Source: Paraburkholderia caffeinitolerans (lineage in GTDB: Bacteria; Pseudomonadota; Gammaproteobacteria; Burkholderiales; Burkholderiaceae). From it: DNA of 64,000 nucleotides. Below are positions 36,298-61,240 of this stretch, in pieces. Under the pieces are notes generated by a model that saw only the letters and a program-made list of their open reading frames with translations, made no database searches and was not told the DNA's origin. The stretch covers positions 62,001-126,000 of the forward strand of contig NZ_CADIKL010000006.1 of assembly GCF_902859945.1 (NCBI RefSeq). The letters are read 5' to 3'. Each line of letters opens with the position of its first letter. Position 1 is the first letter of the stretch. Position numbers and translations under genes: made by a program.

Positions 36298-36385
36298 GGG
36301 CCGGACGCCGTGTTGGTTGCAGGCAGCGGACTCATAATCCGCCGGAGAAATCCCGTCGTCGGTTCGAACCCGACCCGGCCCACCA
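36298..36385 (+). tRNA. tRNA with CAU anticodon and a long (class II) variable arm
   Basis: An 88-base cloverleaf folds fully. The acceptor is GGGCCGG / CCGGCCC (36298-36304, 36375-36381). The D-stem has three pairs, GCC / GGC. The anticodon stem GCGGA / TCCGC holds loop CTCATAA (anticodon CAT at 36333-36335). The T-arm is GTCGG-TTCGAAC-CCGAC, with discriminator A and encoded CCA. The variable region is 15 bases (36343-36357) and can form GGA-GAAA-TCC. A 3-bp D-stem and long arm are class II features (Leu/Ser/Tyr), yet the anticodon is that of Met or lysidine-Ile tRNA. Automatic tools would probably call it tRNA-Met. Confidence 0.85.
36341..36385. other. Probable prophage attachment site (attL) in the tRNA 3' half
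   Basis: The phage integrase gene ends 113 bases from the tRNA and is oriented toward it, the normal layout for tyrosine integrases that use tRNA 3' ends. The exact core cannot be fixed because the second copy (attR) lies beyond the window. The 3' end of the tRNA is the inferred core. Confidence 0.5.
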
Positions 36386-36497: not shown

Positions 36498-37547
36498 TCA
36501 CTTCACCGCTACGAGACGCGGGACACCTTCCGTTCGACTCCCCATCAATACGACGTCAGCATGCGGCCGCAAATGGTCCGGTGCGAGATGCGCGTAGCGC
36601 AGCACCATCTCATAGCTTGCCCAGCCGCCGAGTTCCATCAGCCTGTTCAGAGGCGTACCTCCCTGAACGTGCCACGATGCCCATGTATGCCGGACATCAT
36701 GAAACCGGAAGCGCTCAATCCCGGCCCGTTTGCAGGCCGCGTTCCAGTCCTTGGTTTCCCAGTACGGCATTGCCTCGCCGGCCCGCGTGAAGACGTGCGT
36801 TGGGTGCTTCCCGAGCTGACGACGTACGGCGGCCACCGCCTCGGCGTTCAGCGGGACGCCGATCGCCTTTCGTGCCTTGGCCTGATCGAGATGGATCCAT
36901 GCCCGCCGCGCCTGCAGGTCGACCTGCGACCATTCGAGCCCGATGATGTTGCCCTGTCGCAAGCCCGTCGCGAAGCCAAAGGCCGCGACCTCGCGCATCC
37001 AGTCGTCGTTGATCGCATCCAGCAGTCGCCGTGCATCTTCCCGCGTAATCCACCGGATGCGGCCATCTGGCTCCTTCGCAGCGCCCAGCTTCGGCGCTTT
37101 GTCGATCCACTCCCATTCATTTGATGCATCGTTGAAGAGGGCGCGTATCGTCGAAAGATACCGGTTGCGGGTTGCTGGCTTCAGGTCCGTATCGACGCCG
37201 CGCTGCGAGCTCTTGACCGGCAATGCGGTCAGAATCTCGTCGCGCGTGATCGAGTTCAGATCGCGCCCGCGAAAGACATTCTGGAAGTGCTTAATATGGC
37301 GATGCTTCGAACCATAGTCCGCCATGCCGGCCTGCTCACGCAGGTATCGCAGGGCCGCTTCCTCGAACATGCGCGTCGGCTTTTCGCCGAGCTTGGACAC
37401 GCGCCATGCCTCGTGCTTCAACTTGTCGTGGAACTCCTGCGCCTCCTGTTTATCGGTTGTGCCAGCAGTTTGTCTAATTCGGCCGCCGCCTGGCTTGCGG
37501 ATATCGACGTGCCATACGTCGGAGCCTTTGCGCTTTCGGATGGACAT
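36498..37547 (-). CDS. int: Phage tyrosine-recombinase integrase
   Basis: The 349-residue protein has an N-terminal arm-binding segment (MSIRKRKGSDVWHVDIRKPG) and a core-binding SAM-like domain. The catalytic domain shows all expected residues: Arg in FATGLRQGNIIGLEW, HDVRHTWASWH (HxxR), GGWASYEMVLRYAHL with Trp in the second-His position, and the nucleophile Tyr. It should carry out integration and excision at the adjacent tRNA. Its first 130 bases overlap the tail of the excisionase-like gene in another frame. Confidence 0.95.
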   Translation of the reverse strand: MSIRKRKGSDVWHVDIRKPGGGRIRQTAGTTDKQEAQEFHDKLKHEAWRVSKLGEKPTRMFEEAALRYLREQAGMADYGSKHRHIKHFQNVFRGRDLNSITRDEILTALPVKSSQRGVDTDLKPATRNRYLSTIRALFNDASNEWEWIDKAPKLGAAKEPDGRIRWITREDARRLLDAINDDWMREVAAFGFATGLRQGNIIGLEWSQVDLQARRAWIHLDQAKARKAIGVPLNAEAVAAVRRQLGKHPTHVFTRAGEAMPYWETKDWNAACKRAGIERFRFHDVRHTWASWHVQGGTPLNRLMELGGWASYEMVLRYAHLAPDHLRPHADVVLMGSRTEGVPRLVAVK

Positions 37548-40197: not shown

Positions 40198-40461
40198 CTA
40201 GCGCATGTCCGGGAGTGCCAACTGATCACTCGGCATGACTACTTCGGATGCTTGAATCATGGATAGCTCGAGCTCCGGCGCCGCGCCGGCTATGTAGCGC
40301 ATACTTCGGCCGCCATAATGGCGCTCACAGGCGATAGATTCGCGCATGAGCTTGAGGACCTGCATCGCCTTATCCGCGTCGAGCAGGTAATGTTCAAAGC
40401 CAATGCGGATGCATGCGACATCGCGGCTTCGTGGGCCTTTCGCTCTCGTTGCCATTTTCAT
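40198..40461 (-). CDS. Hypothetical phage protein, directly after the reverse transcriptase
   Basis: The 87-residue basic protein has no family I recognise (CIRIGFEHYLLDADKAMQVL). Its start overlaps the reverse transcriptase stop by four bases, so it is co-translated with the retroelement. Whether it belongs to the retroelement or to the surrounding phage operon is unknown. Confidence 0.65.
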   Translation of the reverse strand: MKMATRAKGPRSRDVACIRIGFEHYLLDADKAMQVLKLMRESIACERHYGGRSMRYIAGAAPELELSMIQASEVVMPSDQLALPDMR

Positions 40462-41795
40462 CGGGCTCCTCGATAAGTCTTCGTGAGATTGAAATTGACT
40501 GCCCGGCCGCGCGAGAGGACGACGTTGGCGAGCTGCGCGCGATCGTGATGGCTGGCGGATGCTTGTCCTAGCAACCCGAAGTAGGAGTTGGCGACCGGCA
40601 TCAGATCAGCGGCCGGCGTCGCCGCGACGCGACGCAATGCTTCGTTGCGCGTGCGCTTTCGCGTCTCGCGGCGCCACGGCTTGATCACCTGTCCGACGAA
40701 GTCGACGCCGCGATCAATCGGTTGCAGGATCGTCTTGCGCGGGTTGATACGCACGGAGAGCCGCGCCGGCAAGAATTCCGTCAGGTCGGCGAGGACCGCG
40801 TTCAGCCAGTCAGTCGACTCGTGCAGGAACAGGAAGTCGTCGACATATCGGATGTAATACCGTGCGCCGAGCACATGCTTCGCTCGCTGATCGAGCACGT
40901 TGAGTAGCACGTTCGCACCGAACTGGCTGAACAGGTTGCCGATTGGCAGCCCGAGATGCGCGGGCTGCTCCATCAGCCGCTTGTGCGGCGGCACACAAAC
41001 CATCTTTGCCGGGTCGCCGCGATATGCGAAGTCGGCCCGTGGGTCGTGCATCAGCACGACGTCGGTCAGCCATCGCCAGAACGGCTCAGAAATCTTCTCG
41101 AACAGCAGCTCGCGCAGGATGCGCCTGTCGATGCTGACGAAGAAATTCGCTAGGTCGAGCTTCAGGTAGTACGCGCGTTGCGACCAGTTTTGCGTGATCG
41201 ACCGCACCTTAGCCTCGAGACGCTCTGCGGCATACAGCGTGCCGCGACCCTTGATGCACGCGCATGAGTCCGCGATGAACGAGCGCTCGAAACGCGGCGC
41301 GATACGATGGTAAAGCAGGTGATGCACGACGCGATCGCGAAAATCCGCTGCCCAGACTTCACGGGGCTTTGGTCGGGTGATTACGAAGCAGATGGAGCGG
41401 CCCGGTGTGTAGCTGCCGTCGATCAGCTCGTCGTAAAGCAGCCGCAGGTTACGCTCGAGGCATCCCTCGAACGCGAGGGCGCTGCGGCTATTGCGCTTCG
41501 TGCGCCGGCAGGCGAGATAGGCCTCGACCAGCTCGGCGAACGAAAACGGGTTTCTATCTGCGGACGGCGCGGGCGCGAAACTCGTTGTTCTGGTTGTTGT
41601 AGTTCTGGTTGCCGTTTTTGAAGTTCTGATACCAGGCCCAGCCGGAAGTATCGTGCTATCTACGTCGCCCGGCCGATTGCTCAGCGGGGAAACTGCGCCG
41701 GACCGGATCGCCAGTTGGCGGTCGGTATCCGTGGTGCGCATGGCGGTGGCCTCGTGGGCCAGCGGCACGACCAGATTGAAAGATCGCTCAGCCAT
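40458..41795 (-). CDS. Reverse transcriptase of a diversity-generating retroelement
   Basis: The RT core spans about residues 81-445. Motif A is LDLANFFVSID (about 214-223). The motif LPIGNLFSQ (about 284-291) carries SQ in place of the usual QG, a hallmark of DGR reverse transcriptases. The catalytic box is YVDD (about 317-320). The start is uncertain. The ATG at 41793-41795 overlaps the avd stop (ATGGCTGA), favouring coupled translation, and is used here. The frame is open through the template repeat. No ATG, GTG or TTG occurs in frame between the repeat and the core, so the RT may carry a repeat-encoded Thr/Arg-rich leader. ATG 41741 is an alternative. Confidence 0.92.
   Translation of the reverse strand: MAERSFNLVVPLAHEATAMRTTDTDRQLAIRSGAVSPLSNRPGDVDSTILPAGPGIRTSKTATRTTTTRTTSFAPAPSADRNPFSFAELVEAYLACRRTKRNSRSALAFEGCLERNLRLLYDELIDGSYTPGRSICFVITRPKPREVWAADFRDRVVHHLLYHRIAPRFERSFIADSCACIKGRGTLYAAERLEAKVRSITQNWSQRAYYLKLDLANFFVSIDRRILRELLFEKISEPFWRWLTDVVLMHDPRADFAYRGDPAKMVCVPPHKRLMEQPAHLGLPIGNLFSQFGANVLLNVLDQRAKHVLGARYYIRYVDDFLFLHESTDWLNAVLADLTEFLPARLSVRINPRKTILQPIDRGVDFVGQVIKPWRRETRKRTRNEALRRVAATPAADLMPVANSYFGLLGQASASHHDRAQLANVVLSRGRAVNFNLTKTYRGAR
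41556..41646 (-). repeat. DGR template repeat (TR)
   Basis: A 91-base segment matches three downstream-of-gene copies. On the coding strand it would encode a chain with eight AAC (Asn) codons between GWAWYQ and EFRARAVRR, the AAY-rich signature of DGR templates. The last 29 bases are invariant and GC-rich. It lies between avd and the RT core, and inside the open RT frame. Confidence 0.95.
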
Positions 41796-42165
41796 GGAAG
41801 CCTTGACCTCCATGGAGCGGGCGATTGCCTGCGGATTTTCTCCATGCGGTGGCCTGCTTGCCGATGCTCGTCGTGAGCTCGATCGCACGAGCATATGCGC
41901 CCTTGTCGAGCTTGCGTTTGTTGAAGCCGAGCCGGAGCAGAAGGTTGATCACCTGCAGGCGCTCGACGAGCTCATTCAGATGAGGCGACTTGTCGCCGGC
42001 GACGTTCGCGCGATACACGAGCACGATGATCTCGATGCATTCGAGATTGATTTTCTCGCCTATCGAGCGCTTGAAGTTTCGCTGCATGTTCGTGACGACA
42101 TCGGTCACGACATCCAGTAGATCTTCGGCAGCGCGATAGATCGGCAGTTGGGTATGTAAGGCCAC
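41788..42165 (-). CDS. avd: DGR accessory variability determinant (Avd-like four-helix protein)
   Basis: The 125-residue helical, basic protein lies between the target genes and the template repeat, exactly where avd sits in the Bordetella phage BPP-1 element. RNFKRSIGEKINLECIEIIV and NLLLRLGFNKRKLD match the Avd/S23-like four-helix-bundle family. Avd forms a pentameric barrel that binds the reverse transcriptase and nucleic acid and is needed for mutagenic cDNA synthesis. The start is GTG at 42163-42165; no good ribosome binding site is seen. The stop overlaps the RT start by eight bases. Confidence 0.88.
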   Translation of the reverse strand: MALHTQLPIYRAAEDLLDVVTDVVTNMQRNFKRSIGEKINLECIEIIVLVYRANVAGDKSPHLNELVERLQVINLLLRLGFNKRKLDKGAYARAIELTTSIGKQATAWRKSAGNRPLHGGQGFHG

Positions 42166-42179
42166 GGTGGTTTAAATCA

Positions 42180-42641
42180 TTAAATTACTGAAGGAATGAA
42201 TCTGCGGACGGCGCGGGCGCGAAACTCGAGGGTCTGGAGGCTGTAGTCCTGGAAGCCGTCCTTGAAGAGCTGACACCAGGCCCAGCCGGAGTTTTCCTCG
42301 TGTGGCTCTCCCGACCAATACCAGGCTGCTTCGAACTCGTCCTTCAGGTTGGCGAACAGAAGTGACTGTTCGCGGCGCGTCGGCAAAGACGCATCGCGCT
42401 CGCTGGCCCATTCGCATGCAGCCTTCCAGTCAACATCCTCGGCTTCTCCCGGCAACAAAATCAGGTGATAGTCCTGCTTGCCTTCCTCACCGAGCATAAG
42501 GCCGGCGTAGCGCTCGCCTGGCGCAAGTGGAATCTTCACGCCCGCGACGACATATTCCGTCGGCATTGGCTGCTTTCTGAAAGCCTCGATCAGCGCGACG
42601 ATTCGCGTTTGCTCGATCTCGATCTGTTCAAGCGTGATCAT
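42180..42641 (-). CDS. DGR target protein 3 (longest paralog, DUF1566/C-type-lectin-like)
   Basis: The 153-residue protein has an extra N-terminal helical segment (MITLEQIEIEQTRIVALIEA), then the body shared with the two other targets: ILLPGEAEDVDWKAACEWAS, LPTRREQSLL, YWSGEPHE. Its C-terminus is the variable repeat GWAWCQ...EFRARAVRRF. The fold is inferred to be the DUF1566/FGE-type C-type lectin scaffold used by DGR targets to display variable residues. AGGAG lies 11 bases before the ATG. A longer upstream frame reads through the neighbouring variable repeat out of frame and is not coding. Confidence 0.85.
   Translation of the reverse strand: MITLEQIEIEQTRIVALIEAFRKQPMPTEYVVAGVKIPLAPGERYAGLMLGEEGKQDYHLILLPGEAEDVDWKAACEWASERDASLPTRREQSLLFANLKDEFEAAWYWSGEPHEENSGWAWCQLFKDGFQDYSLQTLEFRARAVRRFIPSVI
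42200..42290 (-). repeat. DGR variable repeat of target 3
   Basis: 91 bases aligned gap-free to the template repeat. There are 14 differences, every one at a template adenine on the coding strand (5 A-to-G, 5 A-to-T, 4 A-to-C). The encoded variable positions read QLFKDGFQDYSLQTLE. One change turns a Tyr to Cys (GWAWC). Confidence 0.95.
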
Positions 42642-42670
42642 GTTGTGATGCACTCCTGATGAATGAAGAA

Positions 42671-43030
42671 TTAAATGGGCAATCTGCGGACGGCGCGGGC
42701 GCGAAACTCGTTGTCCTGGTCGCCGTAGCCCTGGTAGCCGCCTTTGAAGCCCTGATACCAGGCCCAGCCGGAATTGCGGTGATGGATTTCGTTGCTCCAG
42801 TAGAAGTCCTCGTTGAACTGGTCGCGGAAGTTGTTCCAAAGCATGGCTTGCTCGATACGGTTCGGAAGATCGCCGCCGATCGATTTGGCCCACTCCATCT
42901 GCGCCTTCCACTCGCCATCCACGTTATCGCCGGGCAGCAGGATGATGTGGTGAAAATCACAGTTGGCGTTGCCGATTGCGCCGATGTAGATTTCGCCTTC
43001 AGCGAGGGGCGGAAGAGAAAGTTGTTGCAT
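42671..43030 (-). CDS. DGR target protein 2 (DUF1566/C-type-lectin-like)
   Basis: The 119-residue protein begins MQQLSLPPLAEGEIYIG and shares AQMEWAKSIGGDLP with target 1. YWSNEIHHRNSGWAWYQ leads into the C-terminal variable repeat ending EFRARAVRRLPI. It has no signal peptide or membrane segment, so on its own it should be cytoplasmic or virion-borne. An AGGAAAG lies just before the ATG. Closely related to target 1, suggesting tandem duplication. Confidence 0.87.
   Translation of the reverse strand: MQQLSLPPLAEGEIYIGAIGNANCDFHHIILLPGDNVDGEWKAQMEWAKSIGGDLPNRIEQAMLWNNFRDQFNEDFYWSNEIHHRNSGWAWYQGFKGGYQGYGDQDNEFRARAVRRLPI
42682..42772 (-). repeat. DGR variable repeat of target 2
   Basis: 91 bases aligned gap-free to the template repeat. 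There are 11 differences, all at template adenines; 10 are A-to-G and one is A-to-T. The encoded variable stretch is Gly-rich: QGFKGGYQGYGDQDNE. Confidence 0.95.
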
Positions 43031-43056
43031 GACTTTCCTTTGAATAACTAAATGAA

Positions 43057-43422
43057 TTAATTTTTGAATCTGCGGACGGCGCGGGCGCGAAACTCGTAGT
43101 CCTGGCTGTAGTAGCTCTGGTAGCCGTGTATGAAGTCCTGATACCAGGCCCAGCCGGCATATTCGGGATTGTCGTCCGGCGTATTCGACCAGTAGGCGGT
43201 TTTTTGAAACTGATCGCGATGCTTCTCATACGCGATCACGAGTTCGGCGCGCGTGGGCAAATCGCCGCCAATGCTTTTTGCCCATTCCATCTGGGCTTGC
43301 CACGATGCGCGGTCGTTGTCGCCGGGAAGCAGGACGCTATGCTCGACCTCGCCATTGGCGTCGACGAACCCACAGAGATAAATCTCGCCTGCGGCAAGCT
43401 CTGGGAGCTGGATCTTTTGCAT
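43057..43422 (-). CDS. DGR target protein 1 (DUF1566/C-type-lectin-like)
   Basis: The 121-residue protein begins MQKIQLPELAAGEIYLCG, with AQMEWAKSIGGDLPTRAEL and YWSNTPDD typical of DUF1566-like scaffolds. It ends in the variable repeat GWAWYQ...EFRARAVRRFKN. AAGGAG lies six bases before the ATG, the best ribosome binding site of the three targets. It is the first retroelement gene in the leftward operon, after a 65-residue phage gene. Confidence 0.87.
   Translation of the reverse strand: MQKIQLPELAAGEIYLCGFVDANGEVEHSVLLPGDNDRASWQAQMEWAKSIGGDLPTRAELVIAYEKHRDQFQKTAYWSNTPDDNPEYAGWAWYQDFIHGYQSYYSQDYEFRARAVRRFKN
43068..43158 (-). repeat. DGR variable repeat of target 1
   Basis: 91 bases aligned to the template repeat. 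There are nine internal differences, all at template adenines (4 A-to-G, 4 A-to-T, 1 A-to-C). The outermost base (43158) also differs and marks the edge of homology. Encoded variable stretch: QDFIHGYQSYYSQDYE. Confidence 0.95.
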
Positions 43423-44282: not shown

Positions 44283-44747
44283 TTAGTAGCTGTAGGAGTA
44301 GCTTCCGGCGCCGTTCGAATAGCCGTACGACGAGACGTCGGTGCCCACCCCCGACTTGCTGTCGCCGTAGCCGCTGCCGTTCGTATAGCCGCCGGCATTC
44401 GCGCTCGACGTGCTGCCCGTATAGCCGAACGAGCCCGACACGCCTGCGCCAAAGGCGCCCACTCCGAAGCCGCCAACGCCCGCGCCGAGCGCCGTGCCGC
44501 CGATGGCATATCCACCGCCGCTCGAATTGCTCCATTGCGACGAATAGCCGTTACCGTTCTGGCCGGCTGCTGCCTGTGAGCCGCCGGACGTGCTGACCGA
44601 TGAGCCGAAGGCGCCGTTCACCGAGAACGTGCCGGAGCCGCCGTTATTGCCGTAGGCGTTCCCGTTGCCATTGCCGTTACCTGCGAATGCGGCCGGTGCG
44701 GCAGCGAGTGCAAAAGCTGCTGCGATTGCGATGGTGATTTTCTTCAT
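44283..44747 (-). CDS. Secreted Gly/Ser/Asn-rich low-complexity protein
   Basis: The 154-residue protein has a signal peptide (MKKITIAIAAAFALAAAPAA, cleavage after AFA). It is followed by a mature chain made largely of Gly, Ser, Asn and Tyr (for example GNGNGNGNAYGNNGG and a Tyr/Ser-rich end). There are no Cys residues. Such chains are often disordered, fibre-like or surface-adhesive. No family is assigned. Confidence 0.65.
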   Translation of the reverse strand: MKKITIAIAAAFALAAAPAAFAGNGNGNGNAYGNNGGSGTFSVNGAFGSSVSTSGGSQAAAGQNGNGYSSQWSNSSGGGYAIGGTALGAGVGGFGVGAFGAGVSGSFGYTGSTSSANAGGYTNGSGYGDSKSGVGTDVSSYGYSNGAGSYSYSY

Positions 44748-44797: not shown

Positions 44798-44974
44798 TCA
44801 GTTGTTCTGTTTCGGCGGCTGCCCGTCGCGCTGCGCGTTGCTGTATGCCTCGGCGAAGCGCTGGAGTGCATCGAGCGAGCCACTGACGCTCGAGTACTGC
44901 TGATTGCCGATCACGGCGTCGAGTTTTATGGTCAGGCCTGCGGTGCGTGCCAAGGCGATCAGATCGTCGCTCAT
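44798..44974 (-). CDS. Small phage protein following parB
   Basis: The 58-residue protein (MSDDLIALARTAGLTIKLDA, ending DGQPPKQNN) starts within the parB stop (ATGA overlap at 44971-44974). That overlap is the main coding evidence. No family recognised. Confidence 0.6.
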   Translation of the reverse strand: MSDDLIALARTAGLTIKLDAVIGNQQYSSVSGSLDALQRFAEAYSNAQRDGQPPKQNN

Positions 44975-46776
44975 GGGCGCCCCGTATTCGGAAACGGCCA
45001 GGGTTCGTTCTTGCGGTCCTTAAGCGACGGTTTTGCGTTGTCGGCCTGCGCGGGTGCGGCGCTCGAGCTAGCCTTTGAAGCGGGCTTCGCGACCACCTTC
45101 TTGGCCGCCGGCCTCTTCGCAGGCGCGCGTTTCGCCGCCGCAGCTTTCGCCGTTGGCTTCGGCGAGGCGGGAGGCGCTTTCTTCGCAGGTACCGGCTTTT
45201 CCTTAGGCTTCGGACGCATGTCGGTTTCGACCTGCTTGCGTACGGCGCCCGGGTCGATGCCGCGATCGCGCGCCGTCGCCTCGAGCAGTTCGGGCTTGCC
45301 GGTCGAGTAGGTCGCGGCGACAGATTCGTCGATCAGCGCGATGTCCATCACCAGGCGCCCGAGGCCTTCAGGGTCCTCGCGCGACGCTGCCTCGATCGCG
45401 TCGACCTTCTTCGCAAATTCGGCTTCGGTGATGGCCTTGCTCCCCCAGCCGTGCAGCTTGCAGATGCGCTTCTGGTTTTCATTCCACAGGCGGCGATAGA
45501 AGGTGACGGCCACGATCTTCAAATCGAAGTCGCTCAGGCCGGTGCCTTCGTGCTTGTCACGCACCTGATTGAAGAGTTCGCCGCGATATGCGTCGGCCGC
45601 TTTCTTCTTCGCGAGCTCCGCGGACTGCGAAGGATTCGACGTGCCCGTGCTGCGCGCCTGAATGCCCTTGTCGGCGAGCATCTTCTTCAGGTCCGCCTTC
45701 GGCATGACGTCGATCAGCTTGCCGTCATGTGGGCTCTCGAGGAGCGCAGCGGACTTGACTCCCTTGGCGCCGATGATCTGGCGATACGAACGGTGCTTCA
45801 GATCGTCATAGCAGGTCTCGTCGAGCTTCACGAGTCCGCCTTGCAGGCTGCTGTACTTATCCGGGAGCGCAGCTTTTGCCTCCTTGCCCGTGATCACTTT
45901 TCGCCCCGCGGCCTCGGCTTCGGCGCGTTTCAGCGCGGCACCGGCTTCTTTCTTCTTCGCGTAGCAGGAAGGATCCGTGCAAATTTCTTTGCTCTTGACG
46001 TCGCCGAACATATCAACCTGGTTGCCGGTGCGTTTCGGGCACGGGCCGCATGCACCGGCCGACGGCACGAGGGTCTCGTCGGACGTCTTGAATGGAGCCT
46101 CATCCAGGCGAAGCATGTACGTGCGCTGGATGTGCTCCGATGCCGCCCTGATCGATCTCGGCTCACCGTTCGCCCAGGGCGCTGTCAGCTCCTTCGCCGC
46201 TTTGTCCTGAAGGTCGGTGGGCAGTCGCGCGATCATCAGCGCGGTCGAGGCGTTCAGCTTCTCCTCGTGGAACAGCTTGCGCGTCGACGCATTCAGTGCG
46301 CACAACTTCAGGCGCTGCGCGACGTAGGTACGCGTCTGGCTGACTTCCTTCGCGATTTGCTCGAGCGTATGCCCGCGATCGGACAGCACCTTGTAGCCGT
46401 CCGCCTCCTCAAGCGGATGCAAATCACGACGCTGGAGGTTCTCGACGATCTGAATTTGAAGTACTTCGTCGTCGGAGAGATCGCGCACGAGTGCGGGAAC
46501 CGTCTCGAGCTCGACCGCGGTCGCCGCGCGAAAGCGGCGCTCGCCCGCGACGAGCTCGAACATGCCCGGTTCTTCGGGCCACGGACGCACGAGCACCGGC
46601 TGCAGGATGCCATGCACGCGCACGCTCTCGACGAGTTCGAGGTGCTCGGCCTCGGGGAAGCGCTTGCGCGGGTTCGTCGGCGACTTGCGGATGGCGCTCA
46701 GCGGCAGGAAGTCGATGGATGCCTGTTCGGTCTGCACGAAGGGATCTCCTGGTCTATTCGGATCGTTCACGCTCAT
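44971..46776 (-). CDS. ParB/RepB/Spo0J-type DNA-binding protein
   Basis: The 601-residue protein has the ParB N-terminal nuclease-like fold with SPTNPRKRF, LQPVLVRPW and LVAGERRFRAA (the GxRR CTP-binding box). It also has IQIVENLQRRDLHPLEEA and a helix-turn-helix (EQIAKEVSQTRTYVAQRLKL). A long C-terminal part has CGPCPKRTGNQ and CTDPSCYAKKKEAG, a Cys-containing segment found in phage and plasmid ParB-like proteins. It ends in a Lys/Ala/Pro-rich tail. No ParA is nearby, so partition is doubtful. A gene-regulatory or DNA-loading role is as likely. Confidence 0.85.
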   Translation of the reverse strand: MSVNDPNRPGDPFVQTEQASIDFLPLSAIRKSPTNPRKRFPEAEHLELVESVRVHGILQPVLVRPWPEEPGMFELVAGERRFRAATAVELETVPALVRDLSDDEVLQIQIVENLQRRDLHPLEEADGYKVLSDRGHTLEQIAKEVSQTRTYVAQRLKLCALNASTRKLFHEEKLNASTALMIARLPTDLQDKAAKELTAPWANGEPRSIRAASEHIQRTYMLRLDEAPFKTSDETLVPSAGACGPCPKRTGNQVDMFGDVKSKEICTDPSCYAKKKEAGAALKRAEAEAAGRKVITGKEAKAALPDKYSSLQGGLVKLDETCYDDLKHRSYRQIIGAKGVKSAALLESPHDGKLIDVMPKADLKKMLADKGIQARSTGTSNPSQSAELAKKKAADAYRGELFNQVRDKHEGTGLSDFDLKIVAVTFYRRLWNENQKRICKLHGWGSKAITEAEFAKKVDAIEAASREDPEGLGRLVMDIALIDESVAATYSTGKPELLEATARDRGIDPGAVRKQVETDMRPKPKEKPVPAKKAPPASPKPTAKAAAAKRAPAKRPAAKKVVAKPASKASSSAAPAQADNAKPSLKDRKNEPWPFPNTGRP

Positions 46777-60293: not shown

Positions 60294-60545
60294 ATGAACA
60301 AACCGAAGTCAAAGGGCGTCGCGCCCATGATCGCGCGCCCGCGTCTCGGCGAGAGCGTCATCGTGCGCGCGCCATATTTCGGCAAACCGACTGTAGCGAT
60401 CGTGATTGCCGACTATGGTGACGACACCGATGACATTGCCGTGCAGGCGTTTCCGTTAGGTCGCGATTCGCTGCAGATTCCTGCCATTCCATTTTTCGAT
60501 ACGGAGCCGGATGCAAGCGTTCGGTCGGCGGCATGGCCGGCCTGA
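60294..60545 (+). CDS. Small phage protein before the head genes
   Basis: The 83-residue protein (RLGESVIVRAPYFGKPTVAI, then FPLGRDSLQIPAIPFFDTEP) resembles short proteins at the start of late operons. Unknown function. Its TGA overlaps the next ATG by one base. Confidence 0.65.
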   Translation: MNKPKSKGVAPMIARPRLGESVIVRAPYFGKPTVAIVIADYGDDTDDIAVQAFPLGRDSLQIPAIPFFDTEPDASVRSAAWPA

Positions 60546-61240
60546 TGACGATCCGGGTCACGTCGAATGCACGTGACCTCGCGCGCGGGCTGAACGACTT
60601 CATCCAGAAGCAAGTTCCGTTCGCTATCGCGCAGGGCATCAACCGTACCGCGCAGCGCGTGGCCGATGTCGAGCGCGAAAATCTCGCAGACACGCTTACG
60701 AATCCATCGCCGTTCACGCGCAATGCGGTCGGCGTGCAGCGCGCGAAGAAGGGCGCGCCTACGGCGGTGGTCTACATGAAGGACATCACAGCCAGCTATC
60801 TGGAGCCGTTCGAGACCGGCGGCGTCCACAAGCTCAATAGCCGTGCGCTGCTTAACCCGAAAAACATCCGCCTCAACCAGTACGGCCAGCTGCCGCGCAA
60901 CACGCTCGCGGCGCTCAAGGAGCGACCGGACGTATTCATCGGCGCAGTGAAGACCGCATCAGGCGAAACGATCAACGGTGTGTGGCAGAGACCCACAGAT
61001 ACGAAGCGAGTCTCGCTGCTCAACGCGCGCGGCAAGCGACTCGGGAAGGTGAACAAGCTCGACACGGAGCAGAACGGTGGGCGCGGCAAGCTGAAGTTGC
61101 TCATCCGCTTCGGCGAAGCGCTCCCGGTGAAGAAACGTCTCGATTGGGGCGCGCGGGCGCGCAGGACAGTCGATCAATGGATCAACCGCGACCTCGAGGC
61201 GGCGCTGTCCGCGGCCCTGAAGACCGCACGCCGGGCCTGA
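60545..61240 (+). CDS. Phage structural/tail-completion-like protein
   Basis: The 231-residue basic protein (TIRVTSNARDLARGLNDFIQ, then NPSPFTRNAVGVQRAKKGAP) looks like minor tail or tail-completion proteins that share the PSPFTRNAV motif. TGATG coupling favours the ATG at 60545; ATG 60533 would add four residues. It lies upstream of the terminase genes, an early position for a tail-type gene. Confidence 0.6.
   Translation: MTIRVTSNARDLARGLNDFIQKQVPFAIAQGINRTAQRVADVERENLADTLTNPSPFTRNAVGVQRAKKGAPTAVVYMKDITASYLEPFETGGVHKLNSRALLNPKNIRLNQYGQLPRNTLAALKERPDVFIGAVKTASGETINGVWQRPTDTKRVSLLNARGKRLGKVNKLDTEQNGGRGKLKLLIRFGEALPVKKRLDWGARARRTVDQWINRDLEAALSAALKTARRA

Follow-up and report, generated by a model that had tools for sequence, protein, structure and literature searches.

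A complete diversity-generating retroelement (DGR) is found in a 64,000-nt stretch of DNA from Paraburkholderia caffeinitolerans. The stretch corresponds to C6:62001-126000 in the 8.05 Mb host genome and is referred to as the window. The DGR is carried by a 52.6-kb prophage which has att repeats at both ends and which contains head and tail genes. On the minus strand, the cassette consists of three target genes, the gene for the accessory variability determinant (avd), an RT-15 RNA, a template repeat (TR) and a reverse transcriptase (RT) gene, in this order (Table 1). Each of the three target genes ends in a 90-nt repeat, the variable repeat (VR), while a fourth, AAC-rich copy represents the TR. 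A complete prophage DGR with such repeats had been proposed in an earlier note that was made from the DNA letters. All parts were located where that note had placed them, including the Avd-like gene, the RT with its YVDD and SQ motifs, and the small targets in the early leftward arm, away from tail genes.

Upon alignment of the four repeats, which had been suggested as a check, all 34 core mismatches between the three VRs and the TR were found at TR adenines. They occupy 19 distinct columns, all within the 27 adenine columns of the core (hypergeometric chance 1.5e-13). As the target proteins are ~42-55% identical to each other, with the VR counted in, the identity of the VRs at every non-adenine core position does not reflect shared ancestry of the whole genes.

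The same genome contains a sister prophage at C3. It has an RT (78% identical), an avd gene and a TR (93% identical) of its own, along with two VRs. This second DGR (C3:169774-172084; L010 9774-12338) has one A-type and one B-type target (for target types see below). The two TRs have differing non-adenine bases at five repeat positions, and at each of these the base in each of the five VRs is that of the TR from the same prophage (25 of 25). Therefore, information seems to pass from each TR to the targets of its own prophage. Cross-talk between the templates of the two prophages was considered and rejected, since all markers agree with the TR of their own prophage. The idea of a remote VR at some other place in the genome was also rejected. 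The sole further TR match at E 0.001 covers 27 nt at C13 and overlaps an open reading frame (ORF) on the opposite strand, which may code for an enoyl-CoA hydratase. The genome search with the TR retrieved no VR beside tail genes.

The RT carries YVDD, and its motif 4 (SQ) has the form LPIGNLFSQ. In a maximum-likelihood tree of 36 RTs, it groups with the RTs of Bordetella phage BPP-1 and of ANMV-1 (support 98/100) and thus is inside the DGR clade. Eight group II RTs form their own group (support 93/91) and eight retron-model RTs their own clade (support 100/100), both apart from the window RT. These two sets come from the same bacterial genus, and the retron rows were gathered with the retron St85 model, six being above and two below its cut-off. 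In this tree, the window RT is not among the retron or group II intron RTs, and its score against the group II model TIGR04416 is also far short of the cut-off (69 vs 300 bits). Among solved RTs, 8ub7 is the closest in sequence (E 5.8e-30). Broken or incomplete RT copies occur in other genomes of the genus, namely in G021 (L034, L039), G058 (L035) and G017 (L036).

An Avd is usual in phage DGRs. In the window, the stop codon of avd overlaps an ATG (41792) in the RT frame. With the NCBIfam Avd model the avd product scores 42.9 bits (cut-off 80), and a comparison to solved structures gave nothing at E 0.1.

Two target types recur in the family of related DGRs described below, type A with ~120 aa and type B with ~154 aa and an N-terminal helix. 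A C-type-lectin fold is predicted for the B-type target; its model (pLDDT 93.2) matches the C-terminal domain of Legionella Lcl and other C-type lectins. The A-type targets likely share this fold, to which their sequence profile and weak Pfam matches point. None of the three window targets has a membrane-helix-like hydrophobic stretch (highest 19-residue mean 1.05), and such a stretch occurs in four of 128 distinct family target ORFs, a set beside which 39 further VRs have no recognisable target frame and in which some of the flagged ORFs look mis-framed. Judged from their sequences, the targets look soluble and without obvious export signals.

Table 1. Features of the DGR cassette and of the left prophage end. 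Positions are those of the window.
Feature	Position	Strand	Evidence
Target 1, A-type, 121 aa, C-type-lectin-like, VR at 3' end	43057..43422	-	Lcl_C 1.2e-6 (below Pfam cut-off); phrog_4245; alignment; model pLDDT 88.6
Target 2, A-type, 119 aa, 55% identical to target 1	42671..43030	-	Lcl_C 2.4e-5 (below Pfam cut-off); alignment
Target 3, B-type, 154 aa (153 from ATG), extra N-terminal helix	42180..42644	-	predicted C-type-lectin fold
VR1 core	43068..43157	-	9 mismatches to TR, all at TR adenines
VR2 core	42682..42771	-	11 mismatches to TR, all at TR adenines
VR3 core	42200..42289	-	14 mismatches to TR, all at TR adenines
avd, accessory variability determinant	41788..42165	-	Pfam bAvd 48.4 bits (cut-off 40); phrog_3206 4.9e-28
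RT-15 structured RNA, avd 3' end to TR start, holds likely RT start ATG 41741	41644..41826	-	RF03018
TR core, AAC-rich, open frame with RT	41556..41645	-	repeat alignment and frame analysis
DGR RT, likely 427 aa from ATG 41741 (444 aa from ATG 41792)	40458..41741	-	RVT_1; phrog_1423 1.7e-108; DGR clade
attL, 55 bp of tRNA-Met 3' end	36331..36385	+	exact copy at C6:150841-150895
Tyrosine integrase, prophage left end, same strand as DGR	36498..37547	-	Phage_integrase 3.8e-31; phrog_1

RT-15 RNA and the reading frame of the reverse transcriptase

The RT-15 RNA is a full-length match to RF03018 with 176.4 bits (gathering score 82), and compensatory changes are found in 25 of its 39 consensus pairs among 52 sequences. 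It adjoins the TR on the 5' side. All 13 family loci that were scanned have RT-15, and in all 12 scanned relatives with a VR-defined TR it ends 10 nt or less from the TR start. Between the TR and the RT, no Rfam family was found in these 13 loci, and RF03022 is absent from all of them.

Of 72 representatives, 67 have conserved the ATG inside RT-15 (41741). The G of this codon pairs within an RT-15 stem, which is kept in all 52 sequences, and a GAGG ribosome-binding-like motif is located in the hairpin preceding this codon. Six relatives have a stop codon 5' of the RT-15 ATG, which therefore is the first usable one there. In the window, there is no ATG, GTG or TTG between residues 19 and 155 of the 444-aa frame and therefore, if the RT uses an ordinary start codon, its coding sequence includes the TR. 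The earlier note had described the repeat as being followed by the RT. This order is correct but, given an ordinary start codon, the TR is not located in a gap before the RT.

The frame from the RT-15 ATG to the RT core is kept in 93 of 100 anchored relatives, in 92 of these without a stop codon. Four of the 105 rows were unanchored and BPP-1 (L019), a chance alignment, was dropped; rows were not dereplicated. When stops from the ATG to the TR end were counted for the 72 representatives, the result was 1 for the RT frame as compared to 72 and 66 for the other two frames. The representatives were chosen by an in-frame match, so that the count among the 100 anchored relatives is the fairer one, and as the rows are related the counts do not represent independent events. 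Codon periodicity starts sharply at RT residue 85, just past the TR, and third-position rates right after the TR are 0.29-0.34, compared to 0.35 in the rest of the RT core. Therefore, neither an extra constraint nor a hidden RNA is indicated 3' of the TR. We consider it likely that ATG 41741 is the RT start and that the frame runs from there through the TR into the enzyme.

The mechanistic picture of DGRs rests mainly on BPP-1 (mtd-avd-TR-brt), with an RNA scaffold 3' of the template. The window shares with this phage the order of target, avd, TR and RT, and the RTs, although only ~31% identical, are in one clade. To this extent the likeness to BPP-1 drawn by the earlier note is borne out, but it is incomplete because the structured RNA is on the other side of the TR. 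In BPP-1, RF03022 lies between the TR and brt, the annotated brt starts after the TR, and there is a single, larger tail target; in the window, the RNA is 5' of the TR, which itself is part of the open RT frame. The window system is thus a DGR, but it is a variant and not of the BPP-1 type. In BalMu-1, where 10 of 11 TR mismatches are at A, the RT-14 RNA also follows the TR on its 3' side; three other control DGRs that were scanned gave no Rfam match. The VR of BPP-1 is followed by a GAAA-loop hairpin. A GRNA-loop hairpin was found in none of 161 family VR flanks by a simple scan which caught it in just one of four control DGRs.

TRs overlapping the RT ORF have already been published, as have multi-target DGRs (PMC6642488 and PMC3521204, in the parts available to us). 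DiGReF group 3 also has a TR overlapping the 5' part of the RT ORF. In the accessible portion of that work the overlap is reported as an arrangement class, whereas the window family keeps the frame through RT-15 and TR in most anchored relatives and has the likely start codon in a covarying RNA. Phage Cruim01 also has an annotated RT-15, with an Avd-like gene on one side and the RT on the other. In the open-access literature, we found no paper with the phrase 'RT-15 RNA' and none that places RT-15 5' of the TR or calls the TR translated RT sequence, and a link of RT-15 to the TR was untraceable in print there. In Vibrio phage VP58.5, which has a distant DGR, the annotated RT gene (L217 2737-4014) spans a TR-like repeat (2750-2844) with 12 of 12 mismatches at A. 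This may indicate that read-through of the TR has arisen more than once.

The family of related DGRs

The window DGR belongs to a widespread phage family that includes Burkholderia phage Magia; its nearest named relatives are from Paraburkholderia. The family set consists of 99 loci, after sixteen fetched loci had been dropped because they were duplicates, had no family RT or represented BPP-1; RT matches beginning after residue 60 were also dropped. At least one VR was found in 95 of these loci, those without a VR being L042, L073, L088 and L097. Two VRs are the rule (74 loci), while three VRs occur in ten loci including the window, in counts from which duplicates had not been removed (L021 and L041 are identical). 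The earlier note had considered it unusual that three targets share one template. This was not confirmed, and novelty of this arrangement had to be rejected, given the family counts and the multi-VR DGRs in print. In the sections available to us, 271 of 948 DGRs have multiple VRs in one study (PMC6642488), and two to four VRs are reported for DGRs from Burkholderia, Ralstonia and Collimonas in another (PMC3521204).

Targets were assigned to types by best match. With the window and Magia left out, the arrangement is AB in 36 loci, B in 22, BB in 10 and AAB in 6; AA, BA and A occur once each and 4 loci have none. The B-type target adjoins avd in AB and AAB loci. As AAB is found in six relatives, the A-A-B order of the window is a recurring arrangement.

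The RT in the DGR of Magia (MT701587; PMC7883833) has 80% identity to that of the window over its length. This DGR also shares with the window Avd, A- and B-type targets that are adjacent, an RT start annotated upstream of the TR, and a cassette location near the integrase. It differs by having one A-type and one B-type target beside avd, with a further A-type relative ~6 kb off. This relative (L009 38802-39182) is located near the repressor. It is a candidate target, and one template may serve distant early genes in Magia. The Magia record names only genes 47 and 57 as possible targets. In the part of the paper available to us, the DGR is published with two targets and neither RT-15 nor a TR inside the RT gene is mentioned.

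A total of 178 distinct TR/VR segments from the family were compared and 2,037 of 2,129 mismatches occur at TR adenines, while adenine accounts for 4,942 of 16,794 template positions. The metagenome contigs L099 and L100 have 14 differences in 2,632 bp, all of which are within VR1 and at TR adenines. The RT regions of L048 and L049 are identical, and 24 of 24 VR differences are at TR adenines, with 39 differences outside the VRs. For L057 and L059, which have three VRs each, this applies to 43 of 43 VR differences, with 179 differences elsewhere. When L048 and L049 are each compared to L051, the VR differences are again solely at TR adenines. Eight of the 14 compared pairs are wholly identical; perhaps the same source has been deposited twice or both are from one population. 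Between L029 and L038, VR1 differs at all four bases in addition to 398 differences outside VR1, and therefore the upstream stretch is probably not homologous in this pair. By these comparisons, the DGR family appears to diversify in nature. Neither of the two results that the earlier note had set against a DGR, an RT branching elsewhere or VRs that never differ, was obtained, as the RT is in the DGR clade and the VRs of relatives differ at TR adenines.

Proposed mode of action and alternatives

Three features of the system stand out. RT-15 is 5' of the TR, the likely RT start is in RT-15 with a frame running through the TR, and soluble-looking targets are found among early DNA-metabolism genes. 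We propose that in this prophage DGR a single TR within the open RT-gene frame is used for rewriting, at adenines, of three small genes with a likely C-type-lectin fold, with RT-15 as a 5' scaffold and with targets that act inside the cell. We assign to this proposal a probability of roughly three in four.

One leftward transcript would carry the targets (A-A-B), avd, RT-15, the TR and the RT. Folded on the 5' side of the TR, RT-15 may hold the RT-Avd complex on the template. Such a scaffold role is suggested by its position and by the BPP-1 mechanism, where the 3' spacer does that job (PMC12875486, in the accessible part). Each transcript would serve either for translation of the RT or, when folded, as template, a choice that is suggested because the likely RT start codon and the ribosome-binding motif lie in RT-15 helices. 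The targets may be evolvable binders inside the host cell rather than tail adhesins. We favour an intracellular role because they have no obvious export signals, are found among early genes, and have neighbours which include DNA-protecting families. Some of these neighbour families, namely methyltransferase and Gam, protect phage DNA. Among the microbial systems for directed protein hypermutation, DGRs are the best known. In a lineage with a 5' structured RNA and with an enzyme frame through the template, the RNA needs of A-directed copying become directly testable, and diversified soluble early proteins, if true, would mean that phage DGRs serve for more than tail adhesion.

Several points weigh against this proposal. 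Soluble action of the targets inside the cell is deduced from hydropathy and gene position, and they could also be packed into virions. The fold search with the A-type model gave weak matches, none of them in PDB at E ≤ 0.001. In seven anchored relatives (Haboob, which is L017, and L033, L097, L102, L107, L111, L118) the frame is lost, and therefore read-through of the TR is not required across the whole family. The N-terminal RT extension has no codon periodicity and thus the extension peptide itself seems unselected. In our reading, the passage of ribosomes requires an open frame, while selection acts on the RNA sequence itself. The fetched flank contains an integrase in just 11 of 63 relatives, as judged by similarity to four integrases. 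Finally, no second isolate of the window prophage with a differing VR was found, so that the evidence for VR change comes from relatives and not from the window strain itself.

If the system were a standard DGR of the BPP-1 type, the key structured RNA would be 3' of the TR, the RT would start past the TR, and RT-15 would be a mere regulatory leader. This would agree with the shared gene order, with the likely RT start in RT-15, as expected for a leader, with the seven relatives that have a broken frame, and with the ATG, GTG or TTG that 15 of the 72 representatives have between the TR and the RT core. However, the window frame has no standard start codon in that region, third codon positions change at near the usual rate directly after the TR, and where BPP-1 has RF03022 no Rfam family is found in the scanned family loci. 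We regard this explanation as unlikely. That the cassette is dead, with repeats that are relics of past diversification, is highly improbable even though no second isolate that could show present activity was available. The TR, the VRs, Avd and the RT are intact, relatives show recent VR change, and the VRs match their own TR at all non-adenine core positions and at all markers that set it apart from the sister TR, which drift would have blurred.

It is doubtful that the targets are virion proteins for host recognition, comparable to Mtd of BPP-1, and that their place in an early operon is accidental. There are known cases of C-type-lectin folds that bind surfaces. Viral targets of three DGR clades are annotated mostly as tail proteins in the part of Roux et al. 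(PMC8144416) available to us, and a change of host range is suggested in the accessible part of the Magia paper (PMC7883833). However, the nearest structural-type gene that was found, a minor-tail-like gene (window 60533-61240), is 17 kb from the targets, and the genes for portal, protease, major head protein, sheath, tape measure, baseplate and tail fibre (C6:126-144 kb) form a block ~21-38 kb away. Scans with Pfam and PHROGs revealed no target domain besides the lectin-like one. In relatives, neighbouring ORFs match DNA methyltransferases, RdgC, ParB, AAA/SbcC-like proteins, recombination proteins, Gam, ERF, repressor and integrase. That scan covered 110 ORFs from 29 relatives, and the 25 commonest families listed, of 106 PHROGs and 36 Pfam families, include early functions, one terminase member and no tail protein. 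In the flanks of 63 relatives, no head or tail protein of Magia or the window was detected with probes that had no positive control among those loci; the profile scans of the 29 relatives are the better evidence.

Targets that would act inside the cell have a parallel in cellular DGRs, for which C-type-lectin antigen sensors have been proposed (PMC10907252, in the part available to us). Like the window, these systems have several diversified proteins with a lectin fold, and a cytoplasmic location is predicted for many of the sensors. The bacterial loci are tied to defence-like conflict systems, whereas the window represents a temperate phage with single-domain targets. Our proposal of a 5' scaffold and intracellular targets can be extended, in a speculative way, to an intracellular phage counterpart of somatic hypermutation. 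Paired soluble early lectin-fold proteins would be diversified against host defences or rival phages, in a lineage that spans many temperate phages of Proteobacteria. The template RNA would be permuted, with its scaffold 5', and the coding sequence of its own enzyme would begin in it, with a single fold deciding between enzyme and mutations. We consider this extension to be clearly less likely than not.

The prophage and its surroundings

The 52.6-kb span of the prophage fits the length of an IMG/VR record (L040; 52,564 bp), in which RT and targets are identical. The second att copy is beyond the window, at 88841-88895 in window numbering. The DGR is close to the integrase, in a leftward arm together with a ParB-like gene and unassigned genes. 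The ParB-like protein is large (601 aa; window 44971-46776), and ParB-like genes also adjoin the DGR in relatives. A search of a plasmid collection gave one weak ParB match and nothing more. Upstream of the targets, on the same strand, there is a Gly/Asn/Ser-rich ORF of 154 aa (window 44283-44747). A Betaproteobacteria toxic small RNA from Rfam is found in a related prophage (L057 29-86). At the right end of the window prophage, beyond the window, an O-antigen acetylase-like gene (L225 18004-19983) is likely to be surface-modifying cargo.

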